46,311 nucleotides of DNA, taken from assembly GCA_014238535.1 (NCBI GenBank), contig JABAAW010000007.1:4942-51252 (forward strand). The letters run 5' to 3'. This stretch comes from Alphaproteobacteria bacterium. GTDB lineage: Bacteria > Pseudomonadota > Alphaproteobacteria > JABAAW01. Under the pieces are notes generated by a model. That model had not been told where the DNA came from and did no database searches. It saw only the letters and a list, made by a program, of their open reading frames with translations. Of the stretch, positions 6,204 through 22,086 are shown one piece after another. Position numbers and translations under genes: made by a program. Numbering within the stretch: position 1 is the first letter of the stretch; each line of letters begins with the position of its first letter.

Positions 6204-7349
6204 GTGCTATACAACCCGCACCGCTTCCGTTGCCCTGACGACTTCCACCTCCACCTCAGAGAAGGCAGCCTACTGAGAGCTGTTCTACCTTCGAGTGCGC
6301 GTAACTTCGCGCGTGCGCTCATAATGCCTAACTTGAGGACACCGATATCAAATGCTAGGCAAGCTGCACTCTACCGTAACGAGATACTTAGTGCACTCGA
6401 GGAAATCGAAAATCGGCAAGATATGGAGGCTCGACTGCCATTCGAGCCGTTGATGACTATCTACCTTACGGAAGAAACGACGATCGCGGACTTTGTGAGC
6501 GAGTCGTCTGAGGCGACTGAGGTATTTGCGGGTAAGTTATACTTTGCGGGAGCGACGACCAACGCGCAGCACGGCGTGCGTGACATCACGCGCCTATATT
6601 CGCTATTCGAGCGCATGGAAGAACGCGACATTCCCCTCTCGCTTCACGGCGAGGTAGGTGATGCGGACATCGACATTTATGATCGCGAGCAGGTATTCAT
6701 CGAACGACAGCTAGAACCGCTACTACGGCGTTTTTCATCATTACGAGTGACGCTTGAGCATATATCGACTGCACTAGCGGTGTCATTCGTGCGCGAGCAC
6801 AATTCGCATAACACGAGTCGCCCTCGACTTGGCGCGACCATCACCCCGCACCATTTGCTTTTGAACCGCAACGACATGCTAGCGGATGGTATTCGTCCGC
6901 ACTACTACTGCAAGCCGCTCGTCAAGCGCGAATCGGATCGAGAGGCATTAGTTGCGGCAGCCTCTTCTGGCGAGGGTTGCTTTTTCTTAGGAACGGACTC
7001 GGCTCCGCACGAGCGTGGGGCTAAGGAATCGGCTTGTGGTTGCGCGGGTATTTTCAACGCTCCGTATGCGCTCGATTGCGTGCTGGCTGCGTGCGAGCCG
7101 CAAACGGCGGAAGACCTTCGGCGCATCGAATGCTTCACCTCTGAGAACGGCGCGAGATTTCACGCTTTGCCGCTCAGCGAGAGTTATTTTAGCATCGAGC
7201 AAACATCACAGCCTATTGCGCCGAGCGCACTAGCGGGGCTGGAAGGAACTTCTCAGTTTGTTACATTCGTGCCCCCTCCACGAGTAGGGGATGGTGTTTC
7301 GTGGCGCAGGATAACTACGGCTCGAGAGCACTGCAACAGCGTTGGATAA
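6204..7349 (+). CDS. pyrC: Dihydroorotase (homodimeric PyrC type)
   Basis: 'RCPDDFHLHLREGSLLRAVLP', 'RALIMPNLRTP', 'LSLHGEV', 'VTLEHISTA', 'GATITPHHLLLNRND', 'FFLGTDSAPHERGAKE'. Confidence 0.95.
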   Translation: MLYNPHRFRCPDDFHLHLREGSLLRAVLPSSARNFARALIMPNLRTPISNARQAALYRNEILSALEEIENRQDMEARLPFEPLMTIYLTEETTIADFVSESSEATEVFAGKLYFAGATTNAQHGVRDITRLYSLFERMEERDIPLSLHGEVGDADIDIYDREQVFIERQLEPLLRRFSSLRVTLEHISTALAVSFVREHNSHNTSRPRLGATITPHHLLLNRNDMLADGIRPHYYCKPLVKRESDREALVAAASSGEGCFFLGTDSAPHERGAKESACGCAGIFNAPYALDCVLAACEPQTAEDLRRIECFTSENGARFHALPLSESYFSIEQTSQPIAPSALAGLEGTSQFVTFVPPPRVGDGVSWRRITTAREHCNSVG

Positions 7350-19466: not shown

Positions 19467-19919
19467 CGCGTACCCTCAGTGACAGCGCCTTTGACTATGC
19501 TTGTGTTTGTGCTTTTTTTTCTGCTCACTCTTCTTTTCATGTTTGCTGCCTATTTATTATGCGCTGATGCTTCAAGTGGAGCAAAAAACATGCCGAATAT
19601 TTTTGTCGGAGATAGTTTTTTCATCGAGGTCTGCGAGCGAGGCTCATCTGTTTTTTGAAACGTTTTTTGATTGACTTAGTACTAATCTGGTAGGGTACTG
19701 TAAGCTTGTTATTATACAAAATTATTTTTGTTTTTCTAGTATTAGTTTATATTTTATCGAGAATTATTTTATCGAGCTAATTTCTGAGTTGCTTTAGCAT
19801 TTGTTTTTGCAGGTAGCTTGTTTCAGGTATTTTTTTAGGTATGAAGTTATTTTCTGCTATGAGTGGTTATATTATAGATGAAGTTGCTGCGCTGTGGTTT
19901 GCCGCGGGAGATTTAGAAG

Positions 19920-20794: not shown

Positions 20795-21535
20795 TCATAC
20801 CTTTTTTGCTAAGAAACGACACCTTACATAGTCTGCGACCCAGTTGTTATTTTTGTTTCGTAGTTTGCTTGCAAGCGTATTTTCGATGGCTTGCATGAAC
20901 GAGGATTTCTTTTCGGTTGGTATGTCTTGCATGAATGGTGTAGCGAATGTGTCGAGCCATCCGACGAGGTTGGTTGGTAATGTTGTTGGTCTTTCGAAAA
21001 CACTTATTTCGACGACTTTAAAACCATTTTTCTCTAGTTTTAGCCTATATTCTGTTTCATCTGGAAAGTACCAGGGGTTATAATTATCGCCATTCAGGTT
21101 AAGATTTTGTAGTTGTGCGTATATTGCATCGACGATTGTTTTGATATTATTTTTTGCCCCGAATTCTGCGCAGAAGCGTCCATTTGTCTTTAGTGCTTGA
21201 TAGACATTACTGATCACTGCGTTGGGATTTTTCATCCAGTGCAGAGCGGCATTGGAAAAGACGGCATTGAATTTATTATTGAAGTTCATTTTTTGTGCGT
21301 CGAGGACTTGCGCGTTGATGCCATTGTTTTTGGCAGCTTTGACCATCTGTGGACTATTATCTATTGCGTAGACGGAACAGTTGAATTGCGAGATTTTTTT
21401 TGTAAGTTCTCCATTTCCGCAACCTATATCTAGGATTTTTTCTTTGGGTTTAGGAGAAAGGAGATTGAGTAAATCTTGCCCGAGTATGGGTACATAATCA
21501 GCGTTATGCTTGTACTTATCGACGTTCCACTTCAT
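20795..21535 (-). CDS. Class I SAM-dependent methyltransferase (trans-aconitate methyltransferase-like)
   Basis: SAM motif I 'EKILDIGCGNGELTKKI', 'VYAIDNSPQMVKAA', 'FNAVFSNAALHWMKNPNAVI'. Confidence 0.85.
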   Translation of the reverse strand: MKWNVDKYKHNADYVPILGQDLLNLLSPKPKEKILDIGCGNGELTKKISQFNCSVYAIDNSPQMVKAAKNNGINAQVLDAQKMNFNNKFNAVFSNAALHWMKNPNAVISNVYQALKTNGRFCAEFGAKNNIKTIVDAIYAQLQNLNLNGDNYNPWYFPDETEYRLKLEKNGFKVVEISVFERPTTLPTNLVGWLDTFATPFMQDIPTEKKSSFMQAIENTLASKLRNKNNNWVADYVRCRFLAKKV

Positions 21536-21658
21536 GCTTTTGCAAGTTGTCTACGGCTTTGTGGGCTTTGTGCTATTTACGAGATGTTTATATGTATGAT
21601 CGACTTTTGAGTCGTAAAAGCGAGCCCGACAGGATTCGAACCTGTGACCTACTGATTA

Positions 21659-21969
21659 CTCACTACTACGGCTTTCACCGCCCCTTCTATTTGCTATTGC
21701 GCTTGCTTTTTCGACGGTTAGGTCGATTAGCTAGATGGGTTTGTAGTCCGGACTGTCCCTTCACCCTTGCGTTACCCCCTTGCGTTCCCCCCTTGCGTTT
21801 TACCTTTGCGCTTTGCATTAGGGTGTGCGCCGTCCAGTCTCTACACCTTCCCTTTCCTTTCGGCTAGGGCTTGGCTCGGGATTGCCAGCAAGCGTTGTTA
21901 TGCTTTTTGAGGTTTCCCCGACTTTGACGCCTTATCAGTCGCTTGTTTCCAAGCGATGCTCCCATTACA
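21659..21969 (-). other. Group I self-splicing intron (IC3-like) in the tRNA-Lys anticodon loop
   Basis: Minus strand TGTAATGGGAG...GTAGTAGTGAG. P2 TCGCTTG-GAAA-CAAGCGA; P4 TCGGG/CCCGA (GTCGGGGAAACC...GGCAATCCCGAGCC); R element GGTGTAGAGACTGGACGG; S element GGGACAGTCCGGACTACA; P7 GACTG/CAGTC; P8 CACCCT/AGGGTG; 3' terminal G. Confidence 0.92.
21761..21813 (-). repeat. 13-nt tandem repeat (about 4 units) inside P8 of the group I intron
   Basis: Plus-strand TTGCGTT-type blocks recur at 13-nt spacing (21768, 21781, 21794, degenerate at 21807); minus-strand unit AACGCAAGGGGGn. Confidence 0.85.
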
Positions 21970-22086
21970 AAAGTCAGTTGCTCTACCGACTGAGCTACGG
22001 GCCCACTTTCCCTCACCATACAACTGATGGCTATTGTGTCAATAGAACTTTTACAAAAAGAGCTTTTATAAAATGGCTATATATTT

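Follow-up and report, generated by a model that had tools for sequence, protein, structure and literature searches.

Does the interrupted tRNA at positions 22004 to 21621 of the window (the whole 46,311-nucleotide stretch of alphaproteobacterial DNA analyzed here) represent a working gene split by a ribozyme, and which tRNA would it encode? A preliminary description had proposed that the two ends of this region join into a complete 73-nt tRNA-Lys(UUU) around an insert of about 311 nt, and both parts of that proposal held: ARAGORN identifies the spliced sequence of 73 nt as tRNA-Lys(ttt), a complete cloverleaf with a UUU anticodon, and the core motifs listed for the insert are all present, on the minus strand (no strand had been given). 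The whole gene lies on this strand. It consists of a 5′ exon (21970 to 22004; tRNA positions 1 to 35 by ARAGORN on the spliced sequence, ending in ...GACUUU), a group I intron of 311 nt (21659 to 21969) that begins with U and ends with the terminal G, and a 3′ exon (21621 to 21658; UAAUCAGU...) in which CCA is not encoded. A putative sigma-70 promoter (TTGACA-16-TATGGT; 22015 to 22042, minus strand) is located 10 nt upstream and scores 10 of 12 (chance expectation for the region, 0.6 sites). Both hexamers are also recognizable at the orthologous locus of G001, a genome of the same genus. No homing-endonuclease-like open reading frame was found inside the intron, as had been noted earlier, and the two listed reading frames that overlap it run on the opposite strand and extend into the flanks. 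Apart from tRNA-Ala and tRNA-His, intron-blind ARAGORN and the Rfam tRNA model report no tRNA in the window, and the split tRNA-Lys gene would thus be lost to routine annotation.

The identity of the insert was addressed with two covariance models. The Rfam group I intron model (Intron_gpI, RF00028) matched positions 21980 to 21731 over its full length with 35.9 bits (E value, 1.5e-7), which is under the curated gathering threshold of 50; at that threshold no intron is reported in the window. An independent model, composed of nine alphaproteobacterial introns from tRNA-Arg(CCU) and tRNA-Leu(UAA) and including zero Lys introns, matched the window intron with 79.7 bits (E value, 1.6e-20) and gave no match in two loci with an intact tRNA-Lys. 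The insert together with its exons folds with an energy z-score of -3.3, and none of 100 shuffled sequences was as stable. The last intron nucleotide is G (...GUGAG ending at 21659), and the window carries the traits of tRNA-type IC3 introns, namely, GAAA loops in the P2 and P9 hairpins (GNRA L2 and L9) and a short P5 without P5abc. Kinship with the tRNA-Leu(UAA) and tRNA-Arg(CCU) introns is indicated by both the Arg/Leu-only model and the phylogenetic tree, in agreement with the resemblance to tRNA-Leu(UAA)-type cores pointed out in the preliminary description. Judged by these sequence comparisons and by the covarying core described below, the insert belongs to the tRNA-type (IC3-like) group I introns, a known kind, and the original identification stands.

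The core helices were evaluated in an alignment of 34 homologous tRNA-Lys introns. The named structure is paired in 94.2% of alignment cells, compared with 81.4% after shuffling and 30 to 46% when the structure is slid, and its covariation score is 0.369, against 0.124 ± 0.006 for shuffled alignments and 0.05 to 0.09 for slid structures. Changes on both sides were found at 33 base pairs. The catalytic core is formed by the crossing P3/P7 pseudoknot, with compensatory changes in both helices: P3 (5′ strand, 21926 to 21930; 3′ strand, 21827 to 21831) is paired in 100% of cells with three covarying pairs, and P7, the guanosine-binding helix (GACUG, 21835 to 21839; CAGUC, 21751 to 21755), in 99.4% with two. 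One P7 pair (alignment columns 201/281) occurs as G-C in 16, A-U in 10, and U-A in 8 of the 34 sequences, which bears out the earlier suggestion that GACTG/CAGTC is a compensatory change. All seven pairs of the P2 hairpin (21939 to 21956; GAAA tetraloop) show double changes, with 80% of cells paired despite register shifts, and the two helices of P6/P6a (21843 to 21875) are paired in 100% and 98%. P4 (UCGGG, 21917 to 21921; CCCGA, 21876 to 21880) is invariant and thus neutral as covariation evidence. In the P9 region (21670 to 21746; hairpin GGU-GAAA-GCC), one helix is 100% paired with three covarying pairs, and outer P9 is paired in only 69% of cells, perhaps partly due to the alignment. P8 (21758 to 21825) has an expanded loop with a 13-bp tandem repeat at 21764 to 21799.

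Only two joinings in the window leave an intron-final G together with an exon-final U: one after U35, which yields Lys(UUU), and one after U33, which yields Thr(AGU). The second joining is the one printed by ARAGORN in intron mode (Thr(agt), with the 311-nt intron placed at 33|34), and its intron also ends in G. At the U35 junction, exon CUUU pairs with guide GGAG within the P1 3′ strand or internal guide sequence (GGGAGC, 21958 to 21963), and the last exon base forms a U·G wobble at the 5′ splice site; after U33 this wobble is missing, since U33 would face an A of the guide. The same arrangement, in which the guide pairs with the 3′ end of the exon and places a G opposite its last U, is found in the 49 distinct tRNA-Lys introns. 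Furthermore, the alternative junction is possible in only a subset of the homologues, whereas CUUUUAA is present in all of them, and the intact orthologue in G001 is a tRNA-Lys(UUU). The ARAGORN junction is thus ruled out by the P1 pairing and the homologues, and a tRNA-Thr(AGU) host is almost certainly wrong. The evidence instead supports a predicted junction between anticodon positions 35 and 36 of a tRNA-Lys(UUU), with the terminal G at the 3′ end of the intron, as initially read from the sequence.

Most proteobacterial tRNA-Lys introns are inserted at this same position, while 34|35 is used by the actinobacterial introns and by four of the proteobacterial introns in the tree. The guide tracks the position, reading GGGAG (GGAAG in two Sphingomonas introns) for 35|36 and GGAG, with one G fewer, for 34|35. 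The run of U residues in the anticodon loop would let the junction slide by one base with the wobble kept, and the insertion position switches at least two times on the tree.

The locus has an uninterrupted counterpart. In G001, a tRNA-Lys(UUU) without intron is located between pdxH and an N-formylglutamate amidohydrolase gene, the same neighbors as in the window (52% and 49% identical, respectively), and the spliced window tRNA is identical to this intact gene at 70 of 73 positions. By its gene order and sequence, the G001 locus is an empty orthologous site. A methyltransferase gene (20795 to 21535, minus strand) is located between the tRNA-Lys and the amidohydrolase gene in the window and is absent at the G001 locus. 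Pattern searches, which do produce false negatives (for three genomes, a UUU match in one scan was followed by a different result in another), found no uninterrupted tRNA-Lys in the window's genome (an 82%-complete assembly of 91 contigs), and Lys was absent among the 30 tRNA loci typed there. The second intact tRNA-Lys(UUU) that could have made this locus dispensable was therefore not found, and this is only suggestive of a need for the split gene, because an intact copy could lie in the missing part of the assembly. In the complete genome of Tistrella mobilis (L129, G386), the patterns detected no uninterrupted tRNA-Lys(UUU) and recovered an uninterrupted tRNA-Lys only with the anticodon CUU, so the reading of AAA codons should require the split gene. 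Several other carriers (G038, G388, G393, G401, G405, and G407) seemingly have an extra intact UUU copy.

Several observations count against a functional gene: the Rfam score under the threshold, the incompleteness of the assembly, the 69% pairing of outer P9, and the unusually expanded P8 loop of the window. The low score and the tandem repeat in the P8 loop are what might be expected of a tRNA pseudogene whose intron has degenerated and become inactive. Such decay is very improbable given the paired core helices of the window, the complete cloverleaf made by the exons, the retained promoter hexamers, and the failure to find another tRNA-Lys, and the Tistrella mobilis case likewise speaks against it. 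Taking together both exon halves, the covarying P3/P7 core, the empty orthologous site, and the lack of another tRNA-Lys in the assembly, we infer, with a probability of roughly 95%, that a functional tRNA-Lys(UUU) gene is present here, split by a self-splicing, tRNA-type (IC3-like) group I intron. In the proposed mechanism, the pre-tRNA would fold so that exon CUUU pairs with guide GGAG in P1, an external guanosine bound in P7 would cut after U35, and the freed 5′ exon would attack after the terminal G at 21659 to give the joined tRNA-Lys(UUU). Reverse splicing or recombination of the tRNA locus may have spread the intron in the absence of an endonuclease.

The window intron is not a singleton, and homologous tRNA-Lys introns were found in dozens of species. 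The distribution was surveyed with a pattern of the tRNA-Lys 5′ half plus P3/P4, which favors near relatives, so that the following counts are lower bounds. Within the class, 6 of 385 genomes matched, and the named collection yielded 63 matching loci, of which 46 are interrupted tRNA-Lys genes; the 17 matches discarded comprised 15 uninterrupted tRNA genes and 2 loci without an interrupted tRNA. Carriers include Tistrella, Sphingomonas, Alterirhizorhabdus, Neomegalonema, Rhodospirillales, and others among the Alphaproteobacteria, three gammaproteobacterial assemblies, and, in the Actinomycetota, 17 Microbacterium loci, 6 Nesterenkonia loci, and three further assemblies. Outside the window the introns measure 199 to 294 nt, and the 311 nt of the window are partly accounted for by the tandem repeat in P8. 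The window's genome also contains a second group I intron, 421 nt long and inserted at U33|C34 of a tRNA-Leu(CAA) (L002, 1490 to 1910, plus strand; G000:C55), with a P1 of GACUC/GGGUC, and all five genomes read from this genus (L002 and L057 to L060) have related introns in tRNA-Leu(CAA). Elsewhere, a group I core follows a tRNA-Thr(GGU)-like 5′ half (L135; G092:C61:8241-8295), where the sequence ends before the 3′ half.

Related introns were also found on viral contigs. Three of these (L160, L177, and L221) carry a tRNA-Lys(UUU) split at 34|35 that is called tRNA-Lys(ttt) once spliced, and the contig of L221 spans 84 kb and carries 11 additional tRNAs as well as hits to phage protein families. 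In a fourth (L172), a tRNA-Lys(CUU) is split at 35|36 by a group I intron, which the tree places among the proteobacterial Lys introns. The tRNA-Thr(UGU) genes of two viral contigs of 115 and 218 kb are split as well (L154, about 6925 to 7107; L155, about 2015 to 2221), with intron model scores of 108 and 107 bits, and many tRNA-Leu(UAA) introns of the related type are located on viral contigs. A 735-kb uncultured phage (LR756501; L280, 555 to 845) has a tRNA-Leu(UAA) with an unannotated 205-nt group I intron. The word "intron" is absent from the main text of the huge-phage paper (PMC7162821), and a 2014 review (PMC3984707) places every phage group I intron known at the time in a protein-coding gene. 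The window itself had no match in the annotated phage collection. In Pelagibacter phage HTVC120P, a group I core (L279, 1501 to 1619; record 19653-19771) lies between two reading frames that are both annotated as capsid protein (gp29 and gp30); an unannotated intron probably splits this capsid gene.

Phylogenetic analysis placed the proteobacterial Lys introns and the Leu(CAA) introns of the window's genus in one clade (support, 100/99), with the actinobacterial Lys introns among the Leu(UAA)/Arg introns. About 240 columns are kept in the tree alignment and several branches are long, so details of the topology are unsure. The cyanobacterial tRNA-Leu(UAA) intron has been proposed to be vertically inherited, and the placement of all proteobacterial Lys introns in the 100/99 clade with the Leu(CAA) introns could be read in the same way, as one vertically inherited lineage. 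Such a lineage is quite unlikely: a single clade of all Lys introns is rejected (p-AU, 0.0015), and with it a single origin, and the site is empty at the orthologous locus of G001, within the same genus. The viral tRNA-Lys(UUU) introns fall in neither bacterial Lys group (p-AU, 0.014 for one clade of the viral and actinobacterial introns), which suggests a third invasion. Introns thus appear to have invaded tRNA-Lys at least two times, and probably a third. Within the proteobacterial clade, the Leu(CAA) introns nest beside one Lys intron (L117; support, 98/96), and an alternative tree in which the Lys introns exclude Leu(CAA) was not rejected (P = 0.21). A broader scenario can be offered tentatively, at odds somewhat short of even: tRNA-Lys(UUU) would be a recurrent, unreported target in bacteria and phages for group I introns of the tRNA type, with three or more invasions and with a U-run that permits a one-nucleotide shift along with the guide; phage tRNA arrays would move the introns between hosts, and in the window's genus a Lys-type intron would have given rise to the tRNA-Leu(CAA) intron.

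Among known systems, the Azoarcus tRNA-Ile(CAU) intron, from another host tRNA, is an IC3 intron of solved structure whose compact fold includes the GNRA loops L2 and L9, both of which the window intron also has. With the tRNA-Leu(UAA) intron, the window intron has in common the core motifs (compared with alphaproteobacterial Leu(UAA) introns) and an insertion in the anticodon loop, but the Leu(UAA) intron differs in its host, its position (34|35), and its separate clade. The tRNA-Arg(CCU) introns of Alphaproteobacteria (Agrobacterium; Bartonella BbgpI [PMC7717549]) are likewise small and endonuclease free with a core in common, but those in the loci read sit just past the anticodon (36|37) and differ in host, P3, and guide. 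Self-splicing has been demonstrated for a relative (PMC7717549). In Beggiatoa and Thiomargarita, group I introns are described from other bacterial host tRNAs, tRNA-Arg(UCU) and tRNA-Leu(UAA), and are missing from the annotated tRNA genes (PMC4853749); these hosts differ from Lys. A literature search, with most subscription journals and bioRxiv preprints outside its coverage, found no case of a tRNA-Lys(UUU) group I intron. It agrees with the possibility raised at the outset that both the host tRNA and the insertion site are new, and tRNA-Lys(UUU) is likely new as a host.

Where the split gene is the sole tRNA-Lys(UUU), the decoding of AAA depends on a ribozyme, and because standard annotation misses such a gene, lysine tRNA sets look incomplete. 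The repeated invasion of one anticodon loop, together with the guide-coupled shift of one nucleotide, makes the mobility of endonuclease-free tRNA introns, a long-standing question, directly testable.
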